A stretch of DNA of 46,949 nt from Cytophagaceae bacterium (GTDB lineage: Bacteria; Bacteroidota; Bacteroidia; Cytophagales; Spirosomataceae), in assembly GCA_947452215.1 (NCBI GenBank), contig CANGCD010000003.1:1-46949 (forward strand), in the 5' to 3' direction. The translations under genes and the position numbers were made by a program. Shown piece by piece: positions 9,849-16,389 of this stretch. The stretch's first letter is position 1. Each line of letters starts with the position of its first letter. Below the pieces are notes generated by a model. It saw nothing but the letters and a program-made list of their open reading frames with translations, did no database searches and was not told the origin of the DNA.

Positions 9849-10637
9849 CTACTTTTTACCTTTAATCGATTGAACAAAGCCAACAATCTCAGCATGAAGA
9901 TCTTGCGCTTGGCCCAATAACTTAACAAATGCACTTCCGATGATGGCGCCTGCCGCAGATTCTGAAGCCTTCAAGAAACTCGAACGATCCGAAATACCAA
10001 AGCCAATTAAACGAGGATTTTTCAAATTCATCGCCTCAATCCGCTTAAAATATGTCTCTTGATCACTCGAAATCCCAGTCTTCGCTCCCGTTGTACTCGC
10101 CGACGAAACCATGTAAATAAATCCTTTACTAATCGCATCGATTTGGGCAATGCGTGCATCTGTGGTTTGTGGTGTAATCAAAAAGATATTATACAAACCA
10201 TAGTGTTCGAAAATCGCTTGGTATTCCGACTCAAATTCCGCCATCGGCAAATCCGGTAAAATCAATCCATCTACGCCCACTTCTGCACATTTTTTACAAA
10301 AAGCCTCCACACCATACTGCAACACCGGATTGATATAACCCATCAATAAGACCGGAACTGTCACCGTTTGGCGCATATTCTTCAGTTGCTCAAACAAATG
10401 CGCGACTGTCATTCCTTGATCCAATGAAACCTGATTAGATTGCTGAATAGTCTCCCCATCCGCCACAGGATCCGAATACGGCATCCCAATCTCGATGATA
10501 TCCACACCTCCAGCTTGCAAGGCGTTCAATACTGTCATCGTATCCCCGAAATTCGGGTAACCCGCGGTCGCATAAACATTTAAAATAGGCTCCGTCGCCT
10601 CCGCAAATAATTTCGTAATCCGATTCATCCTAGTCAT
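9849..10637 (-). CDS. trpA: Tryptophan synthase alpha subunit
   Basis: [35 protein letters not shown]. Confidence 0.97.
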
Positions 10638-11823
10638 TCAATTTTAAACGTTGCTGATAGGTCGATAGATCTTTATCGCCTCTTCCCGACAAATTCACTA
10701 CAATCACTTCGTTGGCTTTGGCATGTAATTTACCAAAAACTGCCAAGGCATGTGCTGATTCTAAGGCAGGAATAATTCCCTCCAACATCGAGCATTCCAA
10801 AGCTGCTTCCAAGGCCTCCTCATCCGTAATATCATAAAATTTCGCACGACCTGTTTGGAACAAGTTCGCGTGCATCGGCCCAATGCCCGGATAATCCAAT
10901 CCTGCCGAAATCGAATAAGGTTCAATCACCTGGCCATCTTCGGTCTGCATCAATAAACTCTTACTCCCGTGTAAAACACCCGGTTTACCCAAAAACGTAG
11001 TCGCTGCCGAATGCCCTGTACTAACTCCTTGACCCGCAGCCTCCGCCGCAATCAATTGCGTACGTGGCTCATCCAAGAAATGGTAAAAAGCGCCAGCCGC
11101 ATTCGAACCGCCACCTACGCATGCTATAACATAATCCGGATAATCCCGACCTTCCTTCTCCTGCAATTGGCTACGCATTTCTTCGGAAATTACCGACTGA
11201 AACCGTGCCACCATGTCGGGATAGGGATGTGGCCCAACGACCGAACCGATGATGTAATGCGTATCAACGGGATTATTAATCCAGTGACGCATCGCTTCAT
11301 TCGTGGCATCTTTTAAAGTTTTTGACCCCGATTGAGCGGCAACAACTTGAGCGCCCAACATACGCATCCGCGCCACATTGGGAGCTTGGCGTTCGATGTC
11401 AATAGCACCCATGTAGACGATACATTCCATGCCCATTAACGCACAAACCGTTGCCGTCGCCACGCCATGTTGGCCCGCGCCCGTCTCCGCCACAATCTTG
11501 TGTTTACCCAAACGCTTCGCCACCAAAATCTGACCAATCGTATTGTTCACTTTGTGCGCGCCTGTATGACATAAATCCTCCCGTTTCAAGTAAATATTTG
11601 TCTTGTACTTAGCAGATAAACGCTCCGCCTTGAACAAGGGGGTCGGTCGGCCGACGTAGTCTTTCAACAACGCATGAAACTCCTCCTGAAAGGATGGTTC
11701 CGCGATGATGTCTAAATAGCGACTACGTAATTCCTCGACATTGGGATACAACATTTCTGGAATAAAGGCTCCGCCAAAATCCCCGTAATACCCACGCTCG
11801 TCAACTTGAAATGACTGATTCAT
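10630..11823 (-). CDS. trpB: Tryptophan synthase beta subunit
   Basis: [54 protein letters not shown]. Confidence 0.98.
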
Positions 11824-12416
11824 ATGTTTTGCATTATTTCTTTCACCTTCGCCAAGTCCTTTAATCCGGGACTCAACTCTAATTTACTATTAAAATCCAA
11901 GGCATAAATACCTGGCAATTGCTTTGCTTCCTCTACACTCGCCTCATCCAACCCTCCCGCTAAAAAATACGGAATTTCGAGGGAATAGACCTTCAAGATA
12001 GACCAATCGAAACGCTCCCCTGTTCCACCCACTTGAGCTCCCTTTTTTGTATCAAACAAGTAATAATCAGGCTTTAAATTCAAGCCTTTTATATCTTCCT
12101 CTGACGCGACGCTGACAGCTTTAATGACCGTCAATCCTTCAGCATGCAAGGCGTCAATCACATCCTGCCCCTCTTCTCCATGCAATTGTACAACCTGAAA
12201 CCCAGCCTTTTTAGACAGCGAGATAATCGTATCCGTTGATTCATTCACAAACACACCCACGGCCTTCGTATGAGCAGGAAGTGCAGGAATTACAAAATCG
12301 GCTCCAACAAAGCGGGGTGATTTCTCGACCCAAATAAAGCCCATGTAATCCGGTTCGCAAGCTGCCACCGCCTCGATATTAGTCAAATCCCGCATGCCGC
12401 AAACCTTCCACTTCAT
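11820..12416 (-). CDS. trpF: Phosphoribosylanthranilate isomerase
   Basis: [53 protein letters not shown]. Confidence 0.95.
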
Positions 12417-12419
12417 CTG

Positions 12420-13205
12420 CTATTGCTTTAAAAAATCGGTTAAGGCTTGACCTGGATTTGATGTTTTCATAAAACTCTCCCCAATCAAAAAGCCACGATA
12501 TCCGTAAGTTTTCAAGTCCTTAATTATTTCAGGTCCCGAAATACAACTCTCGGAAACTTTGACAAATTGTTCCGGAATTTTATCCGATAACACTTTAGAT
12601 GCCTCCACGTTTTGTTCCGAAAAATTCTTCAAATTTCGGTTATTAACGCCCACAACCGATATAAATTCACCCAAGGAACGATCTAATTCTTCTAGGTCGT
12701 GTACCTCCAACAAGGTTTCCATACCTAATGAACGCGCCAAGCTCCCTAAAGTTTTGATTTCCTGTGGGCTTAATGCCGCCGCGATCAACAATACCACATC
12801 CGCTCCCATGGATTTCGCTTCAATGATTTGGTATTCATCTACCATAAAATCCTTACGCAAAATAGGCGTGTTTGGATTCGTTCGGCGAGCCAAATCAAAG
12901 TCGGCATAGGTCCCTCCAAAATATTCCGTATCCGTCAGCACCGACAAGCAAGCCGCACCCGCCGCCACATACCCACGCGTCACCTCATCGACACCCATGG
13001 AATCATTGATGATGCCCTTGGAAGGAGACTTACGCTTAAACTCTGCAATGATACCGGTAGATGCTGGCTGAACCAAAGACATGGCCAAGGAATGACAAGC
13101 CCGGGCAAAATAGCCTTGCTTTTCTAATTGAGATACAGAAACGCGTGCTTTCGCTGCGGCAACTTCCTCCCGTTTTGTGGCAATGATTTGATCTAGGATA
13201 CTCAT
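12420..13205 (-). CDS. trpC: Indole-3-glycerol phosphate synthase
   Basis: Start taken at MSILDQIIATKREEVAAAKARV (13205); IAEFKRKSPSKG, VGVNNRNLKNF, ESCISGPE, FLIGESFM. Confidence 0.96.
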   Translation of the reverse strand: MSILDQIIATKREEVAAAKARVSVSQLEKQGYFARACHSLAMSLVQPASTGIIAEFKRKSPSKGIINDSMGVDEVTRGYVAAGAACLSVLTDTEYFGGTYADFDLARRTNPNTPILRKDFMVDEYQIIEAKSMGADVVLLIAAALSPQEIKTLGSLARSLGMETLLEVHDLEELDRSLGEFISVVGVNNRNLKNFSEQNVEASKVLSDKIPEQFVKVSESCISGPEIIKDLKTYGYRGFLIGESFMKTSNPGQALTDFLKQ

Positions 13206-13227
13206 AATTTTATCTTTACTACGCGTC

Positions 13228-14217
13228 TTAATCCATAATAAACTTCTTAAACACTTGGAATGCTTTTCCGCTTTCCAAGGATTCCTTCGCCATGGCAAAA
13301 CCATCCACTAAGGACGGAGCCTTCTCGGCAACCCATAATGCCGCTCCCGCATTGGCTAATACAGCATTCGTTTGTGCCGGTGTCCCTTCTCGCTGTAAAA
13401 TTTTATACAACATATTCGCAGACTCTTCCACATTTGCCCCCCCATACAATTCCGATTGCTGTACATATGAACAAGCTAAATCAGACGGCTCATAAACTTT
13501 TCTACCAGCGCTCGTTTCCAATCTAAAGTTAGATGTCAACGATATTTCATCATAGCCATCTTCGGCATAGACTATACCATATTTCTTACTCGAGTCTTTA
13601 AAAAAACCGGCATACAAATCGAATACCTCTGGCGAGTATACGCCAGTTAATTGCTTATTGACATTCGCTGGATTCAACAAGGGCCCTAACAAATTAAAAA
13701 AGGTTTTCATCCCTAATTCTTTCCGAATTGGTCCTACATAACGCATCGCTGGATGAAAAAGGGGTGCATGCAAAAAGCACATGCCTGCCGTTTCCATTTT
13801 ACGCTTTAATACTTTCGGGTCATTATTGAATTTCAAACCCAAAAACTCCAATACTGTCGAGGAACCCACCGAAGAAGAAACGCCATGGTTACCATGTTTG
13901 GCAATCTTTTGACCCGCACCCACAATCACAAAAGAGGAAGTAGTGCTGATGTTAAAGGTGTCCTTTCCATCGCCACCCGTCCCACAAACATCCATCGCAT
14001 CGAATTCCGATAAATCCACAATTACAGCTAAGTCTAACATCGCTGAAACGAAGCCTTTCAACTCCTGCACTTGGATGGGATGATACCAATAAGATGATAA
14101 AAATGCGGCAATTTGGCTAGGATTTACCCCTCCATTCCCGATTTGTAACATAACCTCGTGCGCCTCTTGTTCCGACAACGCCTCTCCACTCACTCTTCTT
14201 TCTAGAACCTTTTTCAT
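13228..14217 (-). CDS. trpD: Anthranilate phosphoribosyltransferase
   Basis: DAMDVCGTGGDGKDTFNISTTSSFVIVGAGQKIAKHGNHGVSSSVGSSTVLEFLG. Confidence 0.97.
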   Translation of the reverse strand: MKKVLERRVSGEALSEQEAHEVMLQIGNGGVNPSQIAAFLSSYWYHPIQVQELKGFVSAMLDLAVIVDLSEFDAMDVCGTGGDGKDTFNISTTSSFVIVGAGQKIAKHGNHGVSSSVGSSTVLEFLGLKFNNDPKVLKRKMETAGMCFLHAPLFHPAMRYVGPIRKELGMKTFFNLLGPLLNPANVNKQLTGVYSPEVFDLYAGFFKDSSKKYGIVYAEDGYDEISLTSNFRLETSAGRKVYEPSDLACSYVQQSELYGGANVEESANMLYKILQREGTPAQTNAVLANAGAALWVAEKAPSLVDGFAMAKESLESGKAFQVFKKFIMD

Positions 14218-14218
14218 C

Positions 14219-14785
14219 TTATTTCATCCAATTTTTAATCATTTGCAATCCATGTTGCGTCAAATATGCTTCAGGGTGAAACTGCACCCCTCGAACATCA
14301 TATTGCTGATGCGCCTCCGCTAACACATAAGCCTGGTCGTCTTGTGCCGTTATCTTTAAATCTGTTGGCATAGACCCCGGAATTACCGTCCAAGAATGGT
14401 AGCGACAAACCTCGAAACGCGAGGGAATATCCAAGAATAATCGCTCCGTAGGATCAATCACTTGACACTCTGTCGTTACCCCATGCAATACTTCTCCCAT
14501 ATTTTGCAATTCCGAACCAAAAGCCTCTGCAATCGCCTGATGACCTAGGCATACGCCTAAAATCTTTTTGGTCGACTTATATTCTTTCAACAAATCCATC
14601 ATAATACCCGCTTCTGATGGAATCCCCGGTCCTGGTGACAGAAGGATTTGGTCATATTTACCCACTTCCTCCAAACTAATTTTATCGTTGCGAAATACAT
14701 CCACATTCGCACCCAATTCCTTTAATAAGTATACCAAGTTGTACACGAAGGAATCATAATTATCTAAAACCAATACGTTCGTCAT
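14219..14785 (-). CDS. trpG: Anthranilate synthase component II (glutamine amidotransferase)
   Basis: VLDNYDSFVYNLVYLLKELGA; LLSPGPGIPSEAG; ILGVCLGHQAIAEAFG; GVQFHPEAYLT. Confidence 0.96.
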   Translation of the reverse strand: MTNVLVLDNYDSFVYNLVYLLKELGANVDVFRNDKISLEEVGKYDQILLSPGPGIPSEAGIMMDLLKEYKSTKKILGVCLGHQAIAEAFGSELQNMGEVLHGVTTECQVIDPTERLFLDIPSRFEVCRYHSWTVIPGSMPTDLKITAQDDQAYVLAEAHQQYDVRGVQFHPEAYLTQHGLQMIKNWMK

Positions 14786-14791
14786 GTCTTC

Positions 14792-16201
14792 TTAAGCTAA
14801 GTTCTCCGCAACTTCCAATGCACGACGCAAAGCTGCTAATTTATTATGTATTTCTTGCATTTCACTTGCCACAACCGATTTCGCCACGACACCCATGCCC
14901 GCCTGGAAAAACAAGGTATTTCCTTTACTCAAAAAGGTACGAATCGCAATCGCATGATTGAAATTCCCTTGGAAATCCATGAATCCAATGGCACCCCCGT
15001 AAATCGCACGGTTTGTTGGCTCCAACCGATTAATAATCGTCATCGCATTGTGTTTCGGTGCACCACTTAAAGTTCCGGCAGGAAACGTATCTGCCACCAA
15101 TTGCAAGGGATTAACTCCTTTTTGCAATCGGCCAGTCACTTTAGAAACCAAGTGAATGACATGTGAGAAAAATTGTACTTCCTTGAAGGTTTCCACTTTT
15201 ACTTGATCCGCACTTCTACTTAAATCATTTCGTGCTAAATCGACCAACATGACATGTTCGGCTGTTTCTTTAGGGTCTGCCAAAAGCTCTTGAGCAAGTT
15301 CAGCATCTCGTGCATCATCGCCCGAGCGTCTGAACGTTCCAGCAATGGGATGAATTTCAGCCACATCGCCTTCCACCTTGATTTGCTTCTCAGGCGAAGC
15401 GCCGAAAATCCGATATTGTTCGTAATCGAAATAGAATAAATAGGGCGATGGATTCACCGAGCGCAAGGCACGATACACTTGAAAATCATCCCCTTTGAAT
15501 CCTTGCGAAAAACGGCGAGAAGGAACGATTTGGAAAACATCCCCACGTAAACAATGCTTGATACAGGTCTCCACAATCTCTTTTACTTGCTCCTCTTTCA
15601 AATTACTCACCTCATCCCCAACACGTTCGAATCGCTCCGAATCGTAATGCGGCATATTCAACAAATAAGTAATCGTATCAAAGTTTGGCTCCGATCCATC
15701 ATAACTGTGCGCATATAGTGACATTTGATTATTGAAATGATTCACTGCGACCACATAACGATAAACATAGTAACGAATGGACGGAATTTCCGTTTCGGGA
15801 TTTTTCGCTTGAATGTCGATATCCTCAAAATAGGTAACCGCATCGTAAGAAATATGCCCAAAAAGTCCATTGGCCATCGGAGAATCCCCCTTTTCTTTTT
15901 GAAAATCAAACCGATCTGCAAAAGCTTTGAGGGCCTGAACCGCATCCCGACGGTTCGCCAGGGTAAAATTCTCAACAGACCCGTCTGGAAATTTTTGAAT
16001 GACCTGAGAATCAGTTAGTTCGAAGGACGCAACAGGATCAAAGGCAATATGCGAAAATCCGTGTTCCCGACCGTGGTAATCAGCCGATTCGAGGATGACG
16101 GAATTTTTAAAGTTTTTACGAATCTTCATGAAAATGCCGATTGGCGTGAGGGTATCGGCCAACAGGGTTTTTCTAGCAGTTCGAATTTGTATTGTAGACA
16201 T
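14792..16201 (-). CDS. trpE: Anthranilate synthase component I
   Basis: Start taken at MSTIQIRTARKTLLADTLTPIGIF (16201); GDVFQIVPSRRFSQGF, GTFRRSGDDARDAELAQELLADPKETAEHVMLVDLARNDL. Confidence 0.96.
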   Translation of the reverse strand: MSTIQIRTARKTLLADTLTPIGIFMKIRKNFKNSVILESADYHGREHGFSHIAFDPVASFELTDSQVIQKFPDGSVENFTLANRRDAVQALKAFADRFDFQKEKGDSPMANGLFGHISYDAVTYFEDIDIQAKNPETEIPSIRYYVYRYVVAVNHFNNQMSLYAHSYDGSEPNFDTITYLLNMPHYDSERFERVGDEVSNLKEEQVKEIVETCIKHCLRGDVFQIVPSRRFSQGFKGDDFQVYRALRSVNPSPYLFYFDYEQYRIFGASPEKQIKVEGDVAEIHPIAGTFRRSGDDARDAELAQELLADPKETAEHVMLVDLARNDLSRSADQVKVETFKEVQFFSHVIHLVSKVTGRLQKGVNPLQLVADTFPAGTLSGAPKHNAMTIINRLEPTNRAIYGGAIGFMDFQGNFNHAIAIRTFLSKGNTLFFQAGMGVVAKSVVASEMQEIHNKLAALRRALEVAENLA

Positions 16202-16220: not shown

Positions 16221-16252
16221 AAAAAAAGGCTTACTGAGAACAGCAAGCCTTT
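16221..16252 (-). terminator. trp attenuator terminator in the trpE leader
   Basis: Minus strand AAAGGCTTGCTG-TTCT-CAGTAAGCCTTTTTTT: 12-bp stem (one G-U), 4-nt loop, U7 tract; about 20 nt before the trpE start. Confidence 0.85.
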
Positions 16253-16296
16253 CGTAAACATATCATGTACACACAGCAAAACTGTTCAAGGAAATA

Positions 16297-16338
16297 TTAG
16301 CCTTGCCACCAGTTTTTATTGTATGTTGCTTTTGTCAT
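16297..16338 (-). CDS. trpL: trp operon leader peptide MTKATYNKNWWQG
   Basis: ATG ACA AAA GCA ACA TAC AAT AAA AAC TGG TGG CAA GGC TAA on the minus strand; tandem Trp codons (16306-16311) just upstream of a terminator preceding trpE. Not in the ORF track because of size. Confidence 0.85.
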   Translation of the reverse strand: MTKATYNKNWWQG

Positions 16339-16356
16339 TTTCGTATTAATTTGATG

Positions 16357-16386
16357 CAAATGTAAACTGAAATCTCTTAATTCAAA
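16357..16386 (-). promoter_or_regulatory. Predicted trp operon promoter (TTTG-N18-TACATTTG)
   Basis: Minus strand TTTG (16386-16383), 18-nt spacer, TACATTTG (16364-16357); about 18 nt upstream of the trpL ATG. Confidence 0.65.
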
Positions 16387-16389
16387 ATT

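Follow-up and report, generated by a model that had tools for sequence, protein, structure and literature searches.

Attenuation of tryptophan operons has been described in the Bacteroidota as the Bacteroid-trp motif (Rfam RF01692), the Trp leader RNA that Weinberg et al. (2010, PMC2864571) reported from Bacteroidetes. For Flavobacterium psychrophilum, transcriptome maps have led to the proposal of attenuation by leader peptides (PMC9723704), and trp attenuation in this species is named in PMC6414381. The initial annotation of the locus studied here held that attenuation is best documented in Proteobacteria and left its status in this lineage open; at the level of the phylum the description thus already exists as RF01692, and no report of a trp attenuator in Cytophagales was found in the open-access literature searched. 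The window, by which we mean the whole stretch of 46,949 nucleotides that was analysed, carries upstream of trpE an element that we read, with a probability of about 93%, as a ribosome-mediated attenuator of trp transcription, related by descent to the Bacteroid-trp leader but divergent from it; the reading is drawn from sequence comparison and folding models. The element shares with the F. psychrophilum system the phylum and the proposed mechanism upstream of amino-acid operons, trp included; however, that system belongs to a flavobacterium and has the backing of transcriptome mapping, whereas the present element belongs to a member of the Cytophagales and is supported by comparison only. With Escherichia coli trpL (RF00513) it has in common the four-strand logic, the tandem Trp codons, a peptide of 13-14 residues and an intrinsic terminator directly before trpE. 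At the curated cut-off, the Rfam scan returned nothing but tRNAs in the window, and no match to RF00513 (Trp_leader) was listed.

The element lies on the minus strand between the end of a glyoxalase-like gene and the trpE ATG (Table 1), and its leader and terminator are followed by a complete trpEGDCFBA operon, in which the names of trpG to trpA were given by sequence and gene order. Since the seven genes are almost contiguous, a single switch would govern the whole branch of the pathway. The mechanical list of open reading frames began trpE at a TTG (16279) inside the attenuator, a position to which automated annotation could wrongly assign the start; the real start is likely to be the conserved ATG. 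The closest TrpE proteins, at 97% identity, come from genome bins labelled Cytophagaceae. Judging by named records and by genomes of the same genus, the DNA belongs to a species of Aquirufa or to a close relative of that genus (freshwater Cytophagales). Bacteroidota promoters of the -33/-7 type follow the consensus TTTG / TAnnTTTG, which the box ahead of the leader resembles, and TTTTG and TACATTTG were invariant across a 19-sequence alignment of the genus. In the same genome, no convincing His, branched-chain or Phe leader was seen near hisG, ilvD (two copies) or PDT.

Table 1. Features of the trp attenuator region and the operon downstream (positions in the window)
Feature	Position	Strand	Remarks
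Glyoxalase-like gene	ends 16390	-	same strand, 5' of the attenuator
Promoter-like sequence (TTTG, 18 nt, TACATTTG)	16350..16389	-	directly after the end of the glyoxalase-like gene
Leader peptide ORF, MTKATYNKNWWQG*, 13 codons	16297..16338	-	ATG at 16338, TAA 16299-16297
Tandem Trp codons 10 and 11 (TGG TGG)	16306..16311	-	one Aquirufa clade has GGT (Gly) at codon 10
Hairpin 1:2 (pre-emptor)	about 16269..16326	-	MFE and centroid fold; encloses most of the leader ORF
Strand 2, antiterminator arm GAACAG	16282..16287	-	lengthened by one with a G-U pair
Strand 3, antiterminator partner CTGTTC	16238..16243	-	within the terminator 5' arm and loop
Hairpin 3:4, intrinsic terminator and T tract	16221..16253	-	12-13 bp
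trpE, first gene of the operon	14792..16201	-	conserved ATG at 16201
trpG, trpD, trpC, trpF, trpB, trpA	9849..14785	-	near back-to-back; from the ORF table

The 13-residue leader with tandem Trp codons, the complementary segments GAACAG and CTGTTC, and a terminator with a TTCT loop some 20 nt before the trpE ATG had all been proposed in the initial annotation, and each lies in the sequence just as claimed, the terminator stem being AAAGGCTTGCTG/CAGTAAGCCTTT and the T tract ending 19 nt short of the ATG. A hairpin 1:2 is likewise present, but it had been drawn too short, as its paired segments comprise ACATACA/TGTGTGT, AAAACTG/CAGTTTT and CAAGG/CCTTG; with this greater length, most of the leader ORF falls in its 5' arm. 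The fold energy was -37.9, whereas shuffles gave -23.9 +/- 3.3 (z -4.2; equalled by 0 of 200). With its 6-7 bp (shuffle p about 0.07), the antiterminator of the window is short and far weaker than the terminator.

Comparison of trpE upstream regions from related Cytophagales, which the initial annotation had put forward as a check, found the short Trp-codon ORF and the terminator conserved in the genus; together with the TACATTTG box they were kept in every readable same-genus region examined. Among 69 retrieved loci, some of them present twice, 14 distinct versions of the leader were recognised (one from Sandaracinomonas), and all read ATG...WQG-stop. Gly13 was encoded by GGC, GGA or GGG and Asn7 by AAT or AAC, and as such synonymous changes are those of translated peptides, we infer that the leader is translated.

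The genus alignment was too conserved for covariation, and an order-wide swapped-partner test was therefore used instead. Leaders with WW or WWW, their peptides otherwise different, were found upstream of trpE in Flectobacillus, Arcicella, Pseudarcicella, Emticicia, Larkinella, Cyclobacteriaceae, Flammeovirgaceae and several bins, while 7 of 15 order-level genomes inspected had no WW leader near trpE. For 33 representatives, duplexes were computed in which the stretch following the last Trp codon (strand 2) pairs with the 5' arm and loop of the terminator (strand 3), and most of these bettered their shuffles individually. Across 21 lineages the true partners averaged -16.8 kcal/mol and swapped partners -12.8 kcal/mol, a difference equalled in none of 20,000 permutations (p 5e-5); the best-energy register was picked for true and swapped pairs alike, which makes the test fair in that respect. 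In several lineages both arms have been rewritten jointly, for example as GCGATAAGTC/GACTTATCGC in locus L045 and GTGAACAAC/GTTGTTCAC in L115. By this sequence comparison the 2:3 pairing is specific to true partners and, though weak when the window is taken by itself, strong across the order. At the level of sequence, conservation accordingly covers the leader with its Trp codons, the terminator and the alternative pairing, and from this arrangement termination in vivo and a response to tryptophan are to be expected.

In L114 and L115, from Flammeovirgaceae-like bins, two serial WWW leaders, each with its own terminator, lie between about 300 and 60 nt ahead of trpE (MIKRSIYNSIWWWPANN, then MIATANIWWWPLFRRRTIM in L114), and these are apparently tandem trp attenuators. 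Upstream of trpE, L108 has a single WWW leader, MITSVYLTTNWWWLSTFQ, and behind it two different terminator hairpins in series. The leader of Larkinella arboricola (L105, 537-650) scored 32.9 bits against RF00513 (cut-off 41), above its Bacteroid-trp score, which possibly reflects structural convergence.

The effect of ribosome position was examined with a static single-strand folding model, in which transcription speed plays no part. With a ribosome on either Trp codon and the terminator 3' arm not yet transcribed, the probability of the 2:3 pairing was 1.00; without a ribosome it was 0.00, with strand 2 mostly within hairpin 1:2, as had been anticipated when folding with and without ribosome-protected segments was first suggested. 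In the finished transcript the terminator was always favoured at equilibrium, and as the antiterminator is weak, the switch would have to act kinetically, as in E. coli. The proposal that a ribosome at the TAA would cover GAACAG fared less well. With a ribosome at the Aquirufa stop codon, the modelled probability of the 2:3 pairing remained between 1.00 and 0.79 for footprint edges of +12 to +15 (in nt beyond the first base of the P-site codon), and it dropped to 0.26 only at +18, so that the outcome depends on the footprint. Strand 2 is likely left free in this position because just two codons separate the last Trp from the stop. In contrast, with a stop-codon ribosome an Arcicella-type leader and one from Emticicia gave a probability of 0.00 at all footprints tried, and trpL of E. 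coli, used as a control, behaved as expected, its strand-3 pairing falling from 0.45 to 0.07. Thus a stop-codon ribosome blocks the antiterminator in E. coli but, in the model, hardly does so in Aquirufa, where shut-off would probably occur, footprint permitting, by release of the ribosome and refolding of hairpin 1:2 rather than by occlusion at the stop codon.

The locus therefore presents a leader with tandem Trp codons, an intrinsic terminator that separates this leader from trpE and, in the folding model, a mutually exclusive antiterminator that a ribosome on the Trp codons releases. In the mechanism we propose, transcription would begin just upstream of the leader, with a ribosome trailing RNA polymerase. 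When charged tRNA-Trp is scarce, the ribosome would stall at the tandem TGG, open hairpin 1:2 and free GAACAG, which could pair with CTGTTC before the terminator 3' arm exists, and polymerase would continue into trpEGDCFBA. With ample tryptophan the ribosome would complete the peptide and depart, the long hairpin 1:2 would re-form and trap strand 2, and the 3:4 terminator would then form and end transcription.

The relation to Bacteroid-trp is graded. The window scored 24.2 bits over the full RF01692 model, short of the 49 bits set as gathering cut-off. Of 300 sampled genomes from the phylum, RF01692 matched 30; the listed genomes included 11 from the family or order of the window, and none of these gave a match. 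The strong matches in this sample, which from their sequence and the published hosts appear to be Flavobacteriaceae, have WWW leaders and a GTCGTGA/TCACGAC alternative pairing. Scores descended from up to 88.5 bits in Flavobacteriaceae-type sequences through 65.5 in an order member (L051) and 51.5 in an Arcicella-like locus (L088) to 47.8 in Arcicella rosea and 40.9 in Sandaracinomonas, both, like the window, below the cut-off. The window is thereby connected with accepted members through intermediates, of which L088 exceeds the cut-off. Shared with RF01692 are the position upstream of trp genes in Bacteroidota, a long hairpin whose 5' arm holds the short Trp-codon ORF, the terminator start AAAGGCTTG and an end-to-end alignment to the model. 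The window differs in having two Trp codons instead of three, a shorter tail after them, and the arms GAACAG/CTGTTC in place of the pairing seen in RF01692 members. Judged from these sequences, the most apt view is that the element descends from Bacteroid-trp, has diverged and falls short of Rfam's formal threshold; in function it would be a classical ribosome-mediated attenuator.

Within Aquirufa the leader varies further. Eleven Aquirufa-type loci (L066, L070-L073, L075-L078, L085 and L125) read NGWQG, the GGT at codon 10 replacing TGG and leaving one Trp codon. This Gly-for-Trp replacement has a single origin on the trpE tree (97/89), within the WW group, and the sister genera have WWW. We raise, as a tentative idea less probable than its negation, a stepwise reduction of the Aquirufa attenuator from a WWW ancestor to WW and then, once, to GW, with a shortening of the tail after the Trp codons such that a terminating ribosome no longer covers the antiterminator.

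Other readings of the locus were weighed against attenuation. The terminator might only end the transcript of the glyoxalase-like gene, which lies upstream on the same strand, and the WW ORF might be coincidental, as shuffling the 215 nt upstream of the gene yields a short ATG ORF containing WW in 0.64% of cases. Coincidence does not account for a peptide conserved through synonymous change in its distinct versions, for the order-wide cognate 2:3 pairing, or for the A. aurantiipilula, A. nivalisilvae and A. rosea group, in which the DNA upstream of the promoter is unrelated and leader and terminator are nevertheless retained; we regard this reading as extremely improbable. No more credible is a different kind of sensing with an incidental leader peptide. 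The trp genes of other phyla are controlled by T-boxes, Trp-binding RNA or a protein such as TRAP, but no T-box or other Rfam riboswitch reached an E-value of 10 in the region, and what is conserved is a Trp-codon peptide, placed where a stalled ribosome must act. Neither of these readings was adopted. Simple reinitiation was also considered and is ill-suited, the leader stop lying 95 nt from trpE with the terminator in between.

A further variant keeps the attenuator and adds a role in trans for the peptide after termination, as for peTrpL of Sinorhizobium meliloti (PMC7298713). The good conservation of the peptide within the genus would suit such a role; however, its place inside hairpin 1:2 accounts for that conservation, and in other genera the peptide is wholly different, so that we consider a trans-acting peptide very unlikely. 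Ribosome-mediated attenuation, as initially annotated, is by comparison well supported by conservation, by the cognate 2:3 pairing across the order and by the stalled-ribosome folding.

The mechanism is not new in kind, and the modest new interest lies in the Aquirufa variants. The range of the Bacteroid-trp attenuator includes genera of the Cytophagales in which the public model does not detect it, and its operation there implies ribosome-polymerase coupling close enough for attenuation, in a phylum where, in the literature searched, coupling has been little studied. If the stepwise reduction were true, the off state would need ribosome release and 1:2 refolding, and the tryptophan set-point would vary along a measurable natural series. 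The series from WWW through WW to GW offers natural material for asking how many Trp codons attenuation requires.
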